38,107 nucleotides of DNA from Oscillospiraceae bacterium (GTDB taxonomy: Bacteria > Bacillota > Clostridia > Oscillospirales > Ruminococcaceae), in contig JAQXGE010000059.1 of NCBI GenBank assembly GCA_029006135.1, positions 1 to 38,107 of the forward strand. The letters run 5' to 3'. This document shows positions 1,084 through 21,581 of the stretch, in pieces (within the stretch, counting starts at the first letter, position 1; each line of letters opens with the position of its first letter). The notes below the pieces were generated by a model. It had not been told where the DNA came from. It searched no databases and was given only the letters and a program-made list of their open reading frames with translations. The translations under genes and the position numbers were made by a program.

Positions 1084-1386
1084 ATGAATCAGACAATGGA
1101 AGCCGTAACGAAGTATAAGGATATCACGCTGGACCGCGGTGCACACTGTGTGACCCGAGCCGGCAGGGAGATTCCCATGACTCCGCGTGAGTTTGCACTG
1201 CTCGAAACGCTGCTTGACCACCGCGGTCTTGTGATGACCCGCAGCGACCTGCTCGCCGCCGCATGGGGCTATTCCTGCTCGGGCATGACCCGAACCGTGG
1301 ATGTACATATTCAGCGCCTTCGCCGAAAACTCGGCTTAGAGCAGGATATCAAGACCGTCTACCGTGTAGGGTATCTGCTGCACTGA
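1084..1386 (+). CDS. Stand-alone winged-helix DNA-binding protein (OmpR/PhoB C-terminal type)
   Basis: A 100-residue protein consisting almost entirely of the OmpR/PhoB-type winged-helix DNA-binding domain. Family features are the opening strands (ITLDRGAHCVTRAGREIPMT), the TPREFALLETLLDHRGLVMTR helices, the recognition-helix region RTVDVHIQRLRRKLG and the wing VYRVGYLLH. There is no receiver domain, so it cannot be controlled by phosphotransfer in the usual way and probably acts as a constitutive or ligand-free DNA binder. ATG at 1084 is chosen because AAGGAGG at 1068-1074 lies 9 nt upstream; the upstream in-frame GTG at 1048 has no such site. An inverted repeat at 1014-1031 precedes it. No sensor kinase is adjacent, and its target is unknown. 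Confidence 0.8.
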   Translation: MNQTMEAVTKYKDITLDRGAHCVTRAGREIPMTPREFALLETLLDHRGLVMTRSDLLAAAWGYSCSGMTRTVDVHIQRLRRKLGLEQDIKTVYRVGYLLH

Positions 1387-1471
1387 AAATAAAAGTTTTC
1401 TTGCGCAAACGGTTCGCAGTCCGGTTTATTGTCCCGGCGCCATGCTACAATAAAAGTGTAAGGCGGCGGGG

Positions 1472-1500
1472 TTGACACAGCCGCGCCGGCGGGGTATGCT
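1472..1500 (+). promoter_or_regulatory. Promoter of the XRE/ImmA pair
   Basis: A consensus TTGACA (1472-1477), a 17-nt spacer and TATGCT (1495-1500) lie 40 nt before the start codon at 1541. An imperfect dyad, GTTAC-N6-ATAAC, follows near the expected start of transcription and could be an operator for the XRE protein. Confidence 0.6.
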
Positions 1501-1540
1501 TGGTTACAGTAAGATAACTTCGGGAAACGGAGGCCCCGCC

Positions 1541-1885
1541 ATGAGCAAAATGTATGATGTCATCCAGGAGCTTTGCCGGCGAAACAAAACCGACGTGACC
1601 AAGATGTGCCGTGCGCTGGGCATCCCGCGCAGCACACTGTCCGAGCTGGCAACGGGGCGCACCAGGCAGCTGAGCCTCAAACACGCTCAGCCCATTGCGG
1701 ACTATTTCGGCGTGACGCTCGGTCAGCTTGCGGGTGCGGAGCCGCTGGATGAAGCAACCGATGCCATCCGGGATGAGCCAGTCGCCGCCTACGAAAATCT
1801 CACGCGCTACCTCACCGAGCAGGACAAGGAGGACATTGTCACCTTAATCCGGCTTCGGGCTGAACTGAACCGGGGCAGGCGCTGA
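1541..1885 (+). CDS. XRE-family HTH transcriptional regulator
   Basis: A 114-residue regulator with an N-terminal lambda-repressor-like helix-turn-helix (about residues 4-60: MYDVIQELCRRNKTDVTKMC, then the recognition segment IPRSTLSELATGRT). A polar linker and a short C-terminal helix (EDIVTLIRLRAELNRG), a plausible dimerisation element, follow. ATG at 1541 is chosen because GGAGG at 1529-1533 is 7 nt upstream and the promoter at 1472-1500 would overlap any longer N-terminus. The next gene, 19 nt downstream, encodes an ImmA/IrrE-like metalloprotease. In such pairs (ImmR/ImmA of ICEBs1, DdrO/IrrE of Deinococcus) the protease cuts or releases the XRE repressor, so this is probably a protease-controlled repressor. 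No phage or conjugation genes flank it. Confidence 0.85.
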   Translation: MSKMYDVIQELCRRNKTDVTKMCRALGIPRSTLSELATGRTRQLSLKHAQPIADYFGVTLGQLAGAEPLDEATDAIRDEPVAAYENLTRYLTEQDKEDIVTLIRLRAELNRGRR

Positions 1886-1904
1886 GCGGCGGGAGGGAGC
1901 GCGG

Positions 1905-2339
1905 TTGGCGCAGCACAGTCTGAAAGGGACGCTGAAAGAGATGACGCGGGAGGGCATCACCGTGGCGGAATGTCCTCTCAAGGGCAGCCGGTGTCTTGCG
2001 CTGCAGAACGGCCGGTTAGTCGGTGTCAACACTGCCCGATTTGACAGCACCGCCGAGCTGCACACTGCGCTCATCCATGAGGACGGCCACTTTGCGAGCG
2101 GTGCGTTTTACCTGCCCTACTCCCCCTACCAGCTCAAGGAGCAAGCCGAATACCGGGCAGACAAAGCCGCCATTTTGAAGCATATTCCCTACGCGGAACT
2201 TGCCGCGCGCCTGCGCGCCGGGGACAGTCCCTCCGAGGCCGCCGAGTATTTCTGCGTCACCGAGGATTATCTGCGCAAAGCCTACGCGCTCTACCGGGAG
2301 CTCGGCTATGATTTCGGCGAAAAAAACGCAGCAGAGTAA
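1905..2339 (+). CDS. ImmA/IrrE-family metallo-endopeptidase
   Basis: A 144-residue protein with the ImmA/IrrE zinc-protease signature: HEDGH at about residues 59-63 (an HExxH motif) and a downstream acidic segment EQAEYRADKAA that supplies the third zinc ligand. It probably cleaves the XRE regulator encoded 19 nt upstream and so relieves repression, as known for ImmA and IrrE. The start is a TTG at 1905; GGGAGG at 1891-1896 lies 8 nt upstream and no ATG is available nearby. The C-terminal helical stretch (SEAAEYFCVTEDYLRKAYALYRE cut into two helices) resembles the tail of other family members. The pair shares the promoter at 1472-1500 and ends at the terminator at 2354-2385. The inducing signal cannot be seen. 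Confidence 0.82.
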   Translation: MAQHSLKGTLKEMTREGITVAECPLKGSRCLALQNGRLVGVNTARFDSTAELHTALIHEDGHFASGAFYLPYSPYQLKEQAEYRADKAAILKHIPYAELAARLRAGDSPSEAAEYFCVTEDYLRKAYALYRELGYDFGEKNAAE

Positions 2340-2353
2340 GCAGCAGTATAAAA

Positions 2354-2385
2354 GGGCCCCCGCAGCCGTTTGGCTGCGGGGGTCC
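2354..2385. terminator. Terminator between convergent genes
   Basis: A GC-rich hairpin (CCCCCGCAGCC at 2357-2367 pairing with GGCTGCGGGGG at 2372-2382, extendable to 2354-2385) has a 4-nt loop. It lies between the protease gene ending at 2339 and the convergent gdhA ending at 2407. T-rich flanks are weak on the plus side; on the minus side the flank reads TTTTATACTG, so it may serve both genes. Confidence 0.65.
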
Positions 2386-2406
2386 TGCTTTATTCAGTCA
2401 GCAAAA

Positions 2407-3756
<1,350 letters not shown>

Positions 3757-16846: not shown

Positions 16847-16884
16847 ACACTCCGGGGCCGGCATTTCTGCCGGCCCCGGAGTGT
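16847..16884 (-). terminator. Terminator of the pst-phoU operon
   Basis: A 17-bp perfect stem (16847-16863 with 16868-16884) with a 4-nt loop is followed on the minus strand by TTTCTTTTTGAT, a clear T-rich run. It lies 90 nt downstream of the phoU stop and ends the pstSCAB-phoU transcript. Confidence 0.9.
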
Positions 16885-16973: not shown

Positions 16974-17645
16974 TCAGACGATGCGGCGGGATTTGTGGAC
17001 TCCGGTCTTTAGGAACCCGACCCATTCGGCCACGTTGACGGCGTGATCCGCAAGGCGTTCGAGGTATTTGGCGACCATAAAGAGGTCGAGGGAGTCGGCG
17101 GCGGTGTCGGGATGTGCGGCGATGAGGCGGGCAATCCCGTCCCGAATGGCCACAAAGCCGCGGTCGATCACATCATCATGGGCGATGACCTTGGCGGCGG
17201 CATCGAGGTCCACCTGCACATAGGCAGCGACTGAGGCCTTTACCATCGTGAGGACATCCCGCCCGAGGGCGAGAATATCCCGCATCAATTCCCCGGGATT
17301 TTCGGGGTCAGGGCCGCGGTGCAGGGCAATCTCGGCAATATCGCTGGCCTGATCGCCGATGCGCTCAATATCGGTCACCATCTTGAGGGCGGTGCTGACC
17401 TTGCGCAGATCGGAAGCCACAGGCTGCTGACGCAAAAGGAGCTGAAGGCAGCGGTGTTCGATCTCATGCTCACAGGCATCAATCTGGCTGTCCCGCGCCA
17501 CTACGCTGCGCGCAAGTTCGACATCGCCGGTCTCAAGGGCCTTGAGGGCGCTTTCAATGGCGCCGCCCACTTCGTGACCCATCCGGGCCAGCAGCGTGTC
17601 GAGCTGCAGCAGTTCCTCATCATAGGTTTTACGGCTGCTTGGCAT
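16974..17645 (-). CDS. phoU: Phosphate signalling protein PhoU
   Basis: A 223-residue cytoplasmic PhoU protein: two three-helix repeats (about residues 10-105 and 115-210), each with the family's acidic/metal-binding segment (DIERIGDQASDIAE near 93-106; YLERLADHAVNVAEW near 195-209). PhoU links phosphate flow through the PstSCAB transporter to the PhoR kinase and keeps the Pho regulon off when phosphate is plentiful. Length matches the family (215-240). ATG at 17645 has GGGGGAGG 6 nt upstream, 18 nt after pstB. It is the last gene of the pst operon, before the terminator at 16847-16884. A second PhoU-like domain is fused to the Na+/phosphate cotransporter across the divergent promoter. Confidence 0.95.
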   Translation of the reverse strand: MPSSRKTYDEELLQLDTLLARMGHEVGGAIESALKALETGDVELARSVVARDSQIDACEHEIEHRCLQLLLRQQPVASDLRKVSTALKMVTDIERIGDQASDIAEIALHRGPDPENPGELMRDILALGRDVLTMVKASVAAYVQVDLDAAAKVIAHDDVIDRGFVAIRDGIARLIAAHPDTAADSLDLFMVAKYLERLADHAVNVAEWVGFLKTGVHKSRRIV

Positions 17646-17663: not shown

Positions 17664-18416
17664 TCAGCCGAAACGGCCGGAAATGTAATCTTCGGTGCGC
17701 TTGTCCACCGGGGTGGAAAAGACCCGCTCGGTGGGGCCCATCTCAACAAGTTCGCCCAGCAGGAAGAACGCAGTCTTGTCCGAGATACGCGCCGCCTGCT
17801 GCATATTATGGGTGACAATGACGATGGTGTAGCGGTCCTTGAGTTCCAGCGCAAGTTCCTCCACCTTGGAAGTGGAGATCGGGTCCAGTGCGCTGGTCGG
17901 CTCATCCATGAGCAGGACCTCGGGCTCAACGGCCAGTGCGCGCGCAATGCACAGGCGCTGCTGCTGACCGCCGGACATTCCGAGTGCGCTCTTGTTCAGG
18001 CGGTCCTTGACCTCGTCCCAGATGGCGGCATCGCGCAGGGATTTTTCCACAATCTCATCAAGCTGGGACTTCTTGCGCACGCCGTGGGTGCGCGGGCCGT
18101 AGGCGATGTTGTCATAGATGCTCATCGGGAAGGGATTGGGCTTCTGGAACACCATGCCCACGCGCTTGCGCAGAACATTGACATCCATCTTGCTCTTGTA
18201 GATATCCACGCCGTCAAGCAGGATATCGCCCGAGATGCGGCACCCTTCAACAAGGTCGTTCATCCGGTTCAGGCTCTTGAGAAAGGTGGATTTGCCGCAG
18301 CCCGAAGGGCCGATGAGCGCAGTAATTTCCCGCTCGGGGATGGAGAGGCTGATGTTTTTCAGCGCATGAAAATTGCTGTAATACAGGTCCATGTTGGACA
18401 CTTCAAATTTGTTCAT
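17664..18416 (-). CDS. pstB: Phosphate ABC transporter ATP-binding protein
   Basis: A 250-residue ATPase that powers PstCA-mediated phosphate import. It has Walker [10 protein letters not shown] (36-44) followed by the PstB-typical [10 protein letters not shown], the Q-loop [19 protein letters not shown], the signature SGGQQQRL (148-155), Walker [13 protein letters not shown] (168-179) and the switch histidine in IVTHNMQQA. Length is canonical. The start lies 10 nt after the pstA stop with a GGGGGA site close to the ATG. It is followed by phoU. All catalytic elements are intact, so the transporter should be functional. Confidence 0.97.
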
Positions 18417-18426
18417 AGTTCCCCCG

Positions 18427-19344
18427 TTACTTCTTCATCAGTTTTTTGGCGGCAAAGCTGCTCAGGGCATTGATGCCAAGCACCAGAACCAGCAGCACCA
18501 CAGCGGTGCCGTAGGCTTCGGGAACATGAAGTCCCTCGCTTGAGAGCAGGTACATATGCACGGCCAGTGTGCGGGTGGAATCAAACAGGAAATCCTTGCC
18601 CGCAGGCACCGCCGCCACAGAGCCGGCAGTGTAGAGCAGCGCGGCGGTCTCGCCCACAATGCGTCCCGTAGCCAGGATGACACCTGACAGGATGCCCGGC
18701 ATGGCGCTGGGCAGCACGATGGAGAACACCGTGCGCAGTTTGCCCGCGCCGAGGCCGAAACTGCCTTCGCGGTAGGAATCCGGCACGGCAAGCAGGGCTT
18801 CCTCGGTGGTGCGCATAATGAGGGGCAGCACCATGATGGCCAGCGTGAACGCGCCGGACAGCAGCGAAAGGCGCCAGCCGAGCTTGTTCACGAAGAACAG
18901 CATACCGAACAGGCCGTAGACGATGGAGGGGATGCCCTGCAAAGTTTCGGTCGTGAGGCGGACCAGCTTGACGAGCTTGGACCCGCGCGGCGCATATTCC
19001 ACCAGATAGATGGCGGCAAACACGCCGAGCGGTGTTGCGATGAGCAGCGAAAGGGCAGTCATCAGCACGGTGTTGATGAGGGCGGGGACGAGGGAAACAT
19101 TATCGGAAGTATATTCCCAGGCGAACAGACTGGGTTTGAGGTTGGGAATACCTTTGACAAGGATATACCCGATGAGCAGCACCAGAACGGCCGTGGTCGC
19201 AAAGGCCGCAAGGCGTACAAGCCAGCGCAGGATGGCGGCTTTGACGCGCGCGGCGGTGCGGTTGCGCCCGTTTTTGGGCAGCACCATGAGGGGTTTGGCG
19301 CGGGTCATGGCGGAAGAAGTTCCCGCAGCGGCATTTTCAGTCAT
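18427..19344 (-). CDS. pstA: Phosphate ABC transporter permease PstA
   Basis: A 305-residue inner-membrane permease with about six helices. The binding-protein-dependent transport signature (EA-loop that docks on PstB) is seen in [20 protein letters not shown], and the PstA-typical [29 protein letters not shown]-like segment and [12 protein letters not shown] are present. The N-terminal 40 residues are a polar, basic cytoplasmic tail. ATG at 19344 is chosen because AGGAAG lies 8 nt upstream; the in-frame GTG at 19353 is too close to that site. The gene overlaps the pstC stop by 8 nt, indicating translational coupling. It works with PstC, PstB and PstS. Confidence 0.95.
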
Positions 19345-20296
19345 TGCGGCCACTTCCTTTCACGGCGGAGAAGCAGAGGTTGATGAGCAGGATAAAGACG
19401 AACAGCACAACGCCGGTTGCAATGAGGGCTTCCCGGTGCAGGTCAGTCGCATAGCCCATCTCGATGACAATGTTGGCGGTCATCGTCCGCAGGCCCTTGA
19501 ACAGGCCCTGCGGTATGGCGGGCTGGTTGCCCGCGACCATCACGACAGCCATCGTCTCGCCCACCGCACGGCCCACGCCGAGGATGATGGCGGACAGCAC
19601 GCCGCTTTTGGCGGCGGGCAGAATCGTGGAGAAAACGCTGCGCTCATGGGTTGCGCCGAGCGCAAGACTGCCTTCATAGTAGCTGTCCGGCACGGCATCG
19701 AGGCTGCTCTTGCTCACCGTGATGATGGTGGGCAGAATCATAATGCCGAGCAGCAGCGAGGCGGTGAACATTGACAGGCCCTTGCCGCCGCGGATATGCA
19801 GGGTCTCGCGGGCAAAGTCCGATTTAAGAAAGTCCTGGATCCCCGGCGCAAGGAACATCATGCCGAAGAAGCCGTACACCACCGAGGGAATGCCCGCAAG
19901 CAGTTCCACCGCCGGCTGAAGAATCCGGTTGACGGCGGGCGAGGCAAAGCGGGACATATAGATGGCGGTCAGCACCCCGATGGGCACCCCCACCACCAGC
20001 GCGCCGGCGGTGACATAGATGGAGCCGAGAATCATCGGCAGAATGCCGTAGATGTCGTTTCCGGGTTTCCAGGTCGTACCAAGCAGGAAGCTGAGCGGTC
20101 CGATCTGCGCAATGGCAGGCAGACCGTTGGCGAACAGGAACGCGCAGATCAGCGCGACCGCAAGGATGGAGACGCAGGCGCAGGCCGTAAAGACGATGCG
20201 CATAGCCTTTTCTCTTACTCCGGCAGAGGTCAGGTTCCTCACCGCATTGACGGCGGGGCCGCCTGTTCCTTCCCGGCGCTTTGTGTTTTCATTCAT
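19337..20296 (-). CDS. pstC: Phosphate ABC transporter permease PstC
   Basis: A 319-residue inner-membrane permease with six helices after a 30-residue polar N-terminus. PstC features are LLGTTWKPGNDIYGILPMI, GVPIGVLTAIYMSRFA, the AGIPSVVYGFFGMMFL helix and the EA-loop DAVPDSYYEGSLALGAT that contacts PstB. The start at 20296 has GAGG 8 nt upstream and lies 41 nt after the pstS stop. Its end overlaps pstA by 8 nt. With PstA it forms the phosphate channel. Confidence 0.95.
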   Translation of the reverse strand: MNENTKRREGTGGPAVNAVRNLTSAGVREKAMRIVFTACACVSILAVALICAFLFANGLPAIAQIGPLSFLLGTTWKPGNDIYGILPMILGSIYVTAGALVVGVPIGVLTAIYMSRFASPAVNRILQPAVELLAGIPSVVYGFFGMMFLAPGIQDFLKSDFARETLHIRGGKGLSMFTASLLLGIMILPTIITVSKSSLDAVPDSYYEGSLALGATHERSVFSTILPAAKSGVLSAIILGVGRAVGETMAVVMVAGNQPAIPQGLFKGLRTMTANIVIEMGYATDLHREALIATGVVLFVFILLINLCFSAVKGSGRND

Positions 20297-20337: not shown

Positions 20338-21297
20338 TTACTCCACCTCGTTCCAGACGGTGGTCTCACCGACATAGATGCTCTTAATCTGATCCTTGGT
20401 GAGGTCCTCAATGGGGTTAGCGTTATTGACAACGACTGCGATGCCGTCCATGCAGATGGCGGTGGAAACAGCGCCGGCCTCGGTCTCGGAGTCCTTCAGG
20501 TCACGGGAAGCCATACCGATATCGCAGCTGCCTTCCACGGCGGAGTTGACGCCGGTGGTGGAGTCAGAAGTCTGGAGCTCAATCTCGGCGTTGGGGTTGA
20601 CGGCAGCGTAAGCCTCAATGAGTTTTTCCATCACAGGGCTGACGGAGGAGGAACCGGCCACGACCAGTTTGCCGGCAGGCTGAGCGCTGGTGAACGCTTC
20701 GGCGGCATCGTTGCCGATGTAGCCGTGGTCAGAGATGACGGCCTGGCCATCTGCGCCCATAATGTAGGAGATAAAGTCAACGGTCAGTTCATTGCTCGGC
20801 TCGCCCTTGGTGACGATGTTGAAGGGACGGGCCAGCGTGTAGCTGCCGTTCTTGACGTTGTCGGGAGTGGCTTCAACGCCCTCAACCTTGACAGCCTTGA
20901 CGGTCTCATTGAGGGAGCCCATCGAGATGTAGCCGATGGCAGTCTCGTCCGCCTGTACGGTCTGCATGACGTTGTTGGTGGAGTTTGCGATGGTGGCGGT
21001 GACGGTGGTGTTGTCCACCTTCTGGCCATCGGCGTTCTTCTCCTCAACGCCGGTCAGCTCAACAAAAGCACCGCGGGTGCCGGAACCATCCTCACGGGAG
21101 ACAACGGTGATTTCCTCATCGGTGTCAAAGCCGGTTTCGGCGGCGCTGGAAGCAGCCTCGCTGGAAACAGCTTCGGAGGAAACGGCCTCGGAGGAGGCAG
21201 CCTCGCTGGAAGCGGCATTGCTGGCGGAACCGCCGCAGGCGGCGAGGGACAGAGCCATGACGGCAGCCACGGCGACGGAAACGGTTTGCTTCTTCAT
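20338..21297 (-). CDS. pstS: Phosphate-binding lipoprotein PstS with circularly permuted domain order
   Basis: A 319-residue lipoprotein that captures phosphate outside the membrane for PstCAB. Residues 1-21 are a signal peptide with lipobox LAAC (C21), followed by a Ser/Ala/Glu-rich linker with SSEA repeats (29-54). The binding domain is in swapped order. Residues 61-195 (ITVVSREDGSGTR ... IGYISMGSL ... GQAVISDHGYI) match the half that is normally C-terminal; residues 208-319 (LVVAGSSSVSP ... CDIGMASRDL ... DGIAVVVNNANPI ... IYVGETTVWNEV) match the normal N-terminal half. Phosphate ligands known from E. coli PstS have counterparts: R68, S72, G73, T74, the S216-S218 loop and D259. The reading frame is continuous, so this is not a frameshift. 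ATG at 21297 follows a GGGAGAAG site. A Pho box and a -10 box lie upstream. Confidence 0.92.
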   Translation of the reverse strand: MKKQTVSVAVAAVMALSLAACGGSASNAASSEAASSEAVSSEAVSSEAASSAAETGFDTDEEITVVSREDGSGTRGAFVELTGVEEKNADGQKVDNTTVTATIANSTNNVMQTVQADETAIGYISMGSLNETVKAVKVEGVEATPDNVKNGSYTLARPFNIVTKGEPSNELTVDFISYIMGADGQAVISDHGYIGNDAAEAFTSAQPAGKLVVAGSSSVSPVMEKLIEAYAAVNPNAEIELQTSDSTTGVNSAVEGSCDIGMASRDLKDSETEAGAVSTAICMDGIAVVVNNANPIEDLTKDQIKSIYVGETTVWNEVE

Positions 21298-21553: not shown

Positions 21554-21581
21554 TTTACAGGGATTTTACAAATCCTTTACG
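21554..21581 (+). promoter_or_regulatory. Pho box upstream of the Na+/phosphate cotransporter
   Basis: Three near-identical hexamers, TTTACA (21554), TTTACA (21565) and TTTACG (21576), occur at exactly 11-bp intervals, matching the TTHACA direct repeats of Gram-positive PhoP sites. The block ends 33 bp before the TATAAT at 21615-21620. Confidence 0.8.

Follow-up and report, generated by a model that had tools for sequence, protein, structure and literature searches.

The window analyzed here, a 38,107-nucleotide stretch of contig JAQXGE010000059.1 from an Oscillospiraceae bacterium (assembly GCA_029006135.1), carries on its minus strand the operon pstS-C-A-B-phoU, with a sodium/phosphate (Na/Pi) symporter featuring a PhoU domain, a PhoB-like regulator and a PhoR/PnpS-like kinase encoded divergently from pstS (Table 1). 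The first gene of the operon encodes the phosphate-binding protein PstS, in which the two halves stand in the reverse of the canonical order, the C-type half preceding the N-type half (C-N).

Both halves of this protein are homologous to known PstS. The profiles PF12849 and TIGR02136 each match it as two stretches, and the profile search of the genome places TIGR02136 positions 161-293 upstream of positions 35-157 within one open reading frame (ORF). In phmmer comparisons with PDB, residues 31-146 of the canonical Clostridium PstS 4gd5 correspond to residues 203-318 of the window protein (independent E-value 2.8e-24) and 4gd5 residues 149-272 to residues 59-190 (1.3e-25), the canonical 4q8r likewise matching in two swapped stretches. 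The best PDB match, 4h1x (Streptococcus pneumoniae pstS 2, released in 2012), features the same half order and aligns as a single stretch (residues 62-318 to 10-264, E 1.2e-61). The swapped halves, which an earlier note on this DNA had claimed, are confirmed by these matches and lie far beyond chance. In addition, structure prediction yielded a one-chain model of high confidence, residues 1-54 showing a predicted local distance difference test score (pLDDT) below 50, and one chain of 4h1x (1.2 Å) spans the whole body of the window protein from end to end. Sequence, fold model and solved relative thus support its identification as a circularly permuted PstS. The whole-protein score of 180.9 bits falls below the curated cut-off of TIGR02136 (206.6 bits), so that the protein is not filed under this model and score-based annotation can miss it.

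Table 1. Features of the permuted pstS gene and its surroundings in the window (positions in the window, residues of the encoded protein).
Feature	Position	Strand	Basis or remark
phoU	16974..17645	minus	TIGR02135, 206.9 bits
pstB	17664..18416	minus	TIGR00972, 427.8 bits
pstA	18427..19353	minus	TIGR00974, 270.9 bits
pstC	19337..20296	minus	TIGR02138, 302.9 bits
permuted pstS	20338..21297	minus (start 21297, ATG)	319 amino acids and stop; ORF confirmed
signal peptide and LAAC, which we take to be the lipobox, residues 1-21 (Cys 21)	21235..21297	minus	sequence
Ser/Ala/Glu tether, residues 22-60	21118..21234	minus	sequence and model
C-type half, residues 61-195 (REDGSGTR, IGYISMGSL, ARPFNIVTK, GYI)	20713..21117	minus	profile and PDB matches
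new joint, residues 196-208 (about 13 residues), where the former C terminus runs into the former N terminus	20674..20712	minus	
N-type half, residues 209-319 (AGSSSVSP, CDIGMASR, DGIAVVVN, IYVGE..W)	20341..20673	minus	profile and PDB matches
phosphate loop R68-T74 (E. coli R135, S139, G140, T141)	21076..21096	minus	alignment
S217, S218 (E. coli T10, F11)	20644..20649	minus	alignment
S264-R265, in the column of E. coli D56, which D259 does not occupy	20503..20508	minus	alignment
long strand, residues 276-290, read as hinge	20428..20472	minus	structure model; compare PhoX hinge strand
candidate Pho box, three TTTAC units, 11-base period	21554..21580	plus	divergent intergenic stretch between pstS and Na/Pi symporter

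The phosphate site was compared by aligning E. coli K-12 PstS with 13 canonical and permuted relatives, all put in canonical order, the comparison covering the letters at those places which we take to be the E. coli ligands. Here, R135, S139, G140, T141 and S38 are kept as R68, S72, G73, T74 and S246, and T10 and F11 are replaced by S217 and S218. The column of E. coli D56 holds S264, beside R265, and is serine in all 13 aligned proteins, canonical and permuted, which makes serine at this place a trait of the family. The counterparts R68, S72, G73 and T74 listed in the earlier note thereby stand, its fifth candidate D259 aligning with E. coli D51 and not with D56 and being rejected as a ligand. 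The ligand loop and the lobe I residues are invariant across 52 aligned proteins. As judged from these residues, intact phosphate binding is supported, and the window protein itself probably binds phosphate.

The new ends had been supposed to fall at the interlobe linker, a placement which did not survive comparison with other PstS. In the model, the long strand 276-290, read as the counterpart of the PstS hinge strand, is followed by a helix (residues 301-309) in domain II, and the new C terminus (residue 319) lies about 29 residues beyond the strand, inside domain II as well. The new N-terminal strand 64-68 also belongs to domain II, and the old ends, now joined, lie in domain I. Published limits are a 16-residue hinge strand 93-108 and a domain II of 101-251 for PhoX (PMC5439949), and a hinge of 102-117 with a C-terminal domain of 112-278 for the SAR11 PstS (CpPstS; PMC12421899). 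Together with the long strand, these limits argue against the linker placement. The chain would accordingly start in the middle of lobe II, continue through the rest of this lobe and the C-terminal part of lobe I, pass the 13-residue joint of the old ends, form the N-terminal portion of lobe I and end back in lobe II. With the halves rejoined in this way, fold and phosphate cleft would match a normal type II binding protein, and the permuted PstS would be expected to capture phosphate and hand it to PstC and PstA in the usual manner. What would differ is the tether, as the model suggests that lobe II, and no longer lobe I, bears the lipid anchor, the lipidated N terminus now hanging from it.

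The genes adjoining the permuted pstS are those of a PstSCAB importer. Between pstS and the symporter gene, the pattern of the candidate Pho box gave two overlapping matches in the window vs. none in 100 shuffles; its TTTAC repeat resembles the pneumococcal Pho box and may perhaps enable PhoB-type regulation in both directions. A sigma-70 scan found one site vs. 1.8 expected. Downstream of phoU, a strong terminator-like hairpin of 17 pairs is located at 16847-16884 on the minus strand. No second pstS was seen by profile and sequence search in the window's draft genome, which is 84% complete. The region of signal peptide and tether (window 21118-21297, loci L002-L010) looks like the beginnings of other frames of this genome, and among 13 further same-genome matches to the window PstS 12 end at or before query residue 91.

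The rarity implied by the earlier note does not hold, since the C-N order recurs at more than 100 loci. Half order was assigned per ORF by a two-profile classifier built on 10 canonical proteins. Within the genus (35 genomes), 25 genomes feature a full permuted pstS, three a canonical one (G011, G025, G028), two (G009, G012) contig-end-cut pieces fitting a permuted pstS, and five no match. In the family, TIGR02136 matched 77 of 100 genomes, with a permuted gene in 27, the canonical order in 50 (a count that takes in partial matches and giant ORFs, not all of which need be PstS), both in two and half matches only in two. At the level of the phylum, 186 of 398 genomes matched at 1e-12; among the matches listed to about 7e-22, at least 18 genomes, the window's own included, carry the permuted order and at least two a fused tandem. 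Searches of named genomes returned at least 594 stretches, at least 497 of them encoding relatives, and a C-N protein was found in each of the best 80 of these; as the query itself was permuted, this is no frequency. The C-N loci include Coprococcus comes, Ruminococcus bromii, Dorea sp. D27, Intestinimonas butyriciproducens, Thermoclostridium caenicola and Adlercreutzia sp. ZJ176. Further C-N records carry the labels Treponema, Spirochaetaceae, Helicobacteraceae, Acidaminococcaceae and Enterococcus; all of these are metagenome bins whose assignment may be wrong. Lactobacillales, Actinomycetota and Spirochaetota lay outside the genome sampling. One genome (G088; loci L054, L074, L075) holds two permuted and one canonical pstS. 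In another, five clustered open frames of 862-1627 amino acids with a PstS-like domain (G545:C13:41125-57343) and two more on C24 and C34 (852 and 850 amino acids) are perhaps surface proteins reusing this domain.

With respect to the origin, a quick tree of 91 PstS rows with the halves reordered to canonical requires one change for all 53 permuted rows, including 4h1x, and a permuted core of 52 rows reaches 91 in the Shimodaira-Hasegawa-like approximate likelihood ratio test (SH-aLRT). A second tree was built for the adjoining permease subunit PstC from 76 chosen rows, excluding some canonical loci without an adjoining PstC match (L232, L236 and L237 among others); it carried a long-branch warning, L097, L103 and L190 being among the long rows. 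There, the PstC of all 47 permuted loci fall on one side of a branch with SH-aLRT 98. Within the same genus, PstC of canonical pst operons score 129, 130 and 241 bits against the window PstC, whereas those of permuted operons score 451-546 bits, the exception being L012 (269 bits), where the gene lies at a contig end. The distance of the former and the closeness of the latter suggest replacement of the whole operon.

In two genomes of one genus (G342, G361), 527-residue lipoproteins of the order N-C-N-C are encoded upstream of pstC (INTERMEDIATE). Such a fused PstS corresponds to the opening stage in the duplication model, by which an in-frame tandem duplication of pstS is followed by loss of the outer halves. 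At loci L056 and L057 (ORF 1102-2685, minus strand), a fused PstS-PstS lipoprotein of this N-C-N-C order adjoins pstC; as read from its sequence, one chain would hold two binding bodies, which is unusual in itself. A joint clade of tandem and permuted rows is not rejected in a smaller PstS set (approximately unbiased test, p-AU 0.266). No transitional ORFs of the order C-N-C or N-C-N were seen among the ORFs of the best 80 named loci, and a lone N half at a locus start (L181:3-356) probably belongs to the end of a copy cut off there. Origin by tandem duplication, as the earlier note had proposed, is plausible insofar as the fused form exists. Most likely, a single duplication of this kind gave rise to the permuted form, and the pst operon lineage carrying it would subsequently have reached many anaerobes. 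A more tentative extension, which we regard as possible but doubtful, is that one permutation event founded a separate Pst transporter lineage: with the anchor on lobe II in place of lobe I, PstS would be seated differently on the permease and PstC and PstA would have adapted to it, leaving permuted and canonical PstS non-interchangeable and leading to swaps of whole operons and not of pstS by itself.

Taken as a whole, it is highly probable that the window encodes a natural, circularly permuted PstS which serves as the lipid-anchored receptor of this genome's PstSCAB importer. Several points weigh against this reading or parts of it. The PstS branch with all 53 permuted rows has support 0, which is attributed to L076 as a long row (L097, from the same genome, is also long in the PstC tree), and in the smaller PstS set 20 permuted rows group together at support 54, or 87 without L076. 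The tandem PstS halves of G342 and G361 fall among other canonical rows, and their PstC lie outside the branch holding the permuted and 11 canonical rows, for which reason the fused tandem is not supported as proven ancestor; its existence indicates that the duplication step happens in nature. The lobe limits were derived from the secondary structure of the model and from the domain boundaries reported for other PstS rather than from coordinates, and phosphate binding of the window protein is predicted from its sequence. In pneumococcus, deletion of pst1-phoU1 alone changed neither growth in low phosphate nor uptake at 1 mM (PMC4913102); this is ascribed to the other importers of this organism.

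Among the rival explanations, a permutation that came about differently, for instance through gene fission and refusion, or several times independently, is rather unlikely; the weak support of the PstS clade and the fact that no doubled-pstS ancestor of the permuted lineage was found speak for it, but the grouping of the PstC partners, the cut at the same place in 19 aligned proteins and the existence of a fused tandem pstS favor a single duplication. Far less probable is a failure of the halves to close one cleft, leaving a domain-swapped dimer or a non-binding remnant. The missing E. coli D56 would fit this, which is however true of the aligned canonical relatives too, and the high-confidence one-chain model, the single 4h1x chain, the invariant ligand residues and a functional pneumococcal Pst1 stand against it. 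For the latter, the initial uptake rate in low phosphate fell about twofold in the pst1-phoU1 deletion mutant and the pst1 transcript rose more than 100-fold in low phosphate (PMC4913102), so this importer, with a permuted PstS in its operon, is functional. An artefact of assembly or binning, by which pieces of two pstS genes became joined, is conceivable for a draft of 87 contigs but can be dismissed, as the same order recurs at so many loci, including one-contig genomes (G004, G026), named genome records and the solved structure.

The permuted PstS is widespread and has a solved member, and no description of it was found in the open-licence literature, judged from titles and passages. Likewise, "4h1x" is unmentioned there, "permut" is absent from the text of PMC4913102, and the study behind PDB 9l8j (Sll0540, title "evolutionary hotspot") was not found by title. 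The finding means that a central nutrient receptor was rewired across a widespread bacterial lineage, which offers a natural case for asking what leads tethered binding proteins to become permuted, a question that TpMglB-2 (see below) raises as well, and, with the solved structure, a means to ask whether the anchored lobe matters.

The closest known system is S. pneumoniae SP_2084 (4h1x), which shares the half order of the window PstS and is the pstS of the pneumococcal Pst1 operon SP_2084-8 (PMC6722419). The names clash in this case, as PDB calls SP_2084 pstS 2 and another paper gives pstS2 to SP_1400. Pneumococcus also possesses a canonical PstS (4exl, residues 6-115 of which match the N-type half), whereas the window's draft yielded a single pstS. 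The canonical TIGR02136 PstS of Clostridium perfringens (4gd5, 4q8r) and Vibrio cholerae (1twy) feature homologous halves, the kept ligand loop and the same operon type, but differ in half order and in the place where the N-terminal anchor is attached. Permuted binding proteins as such are already known. The glycine betaine-binding and molybdate-binding proteins form, together with CysB, a circular-permutation family (PMC2395249). OpuAC is placed with these, and at 12% identity and with a different ligand the shared arrangement alone can be claimed. TpMglB-2 (Tp0684) of Treponema pallidum is a circularly permuted glucose-binding lipoprotein with relatives in treponemes and Gram-positives, for which a link to anchoring was raised by its authors (PMC4990184). 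Like the window PstS, it is a natural permutant and a tethered binding protein; unlike it, it features a type I fold, a sugar ligand and a different permuted segment, and no homology is claimed at this level.
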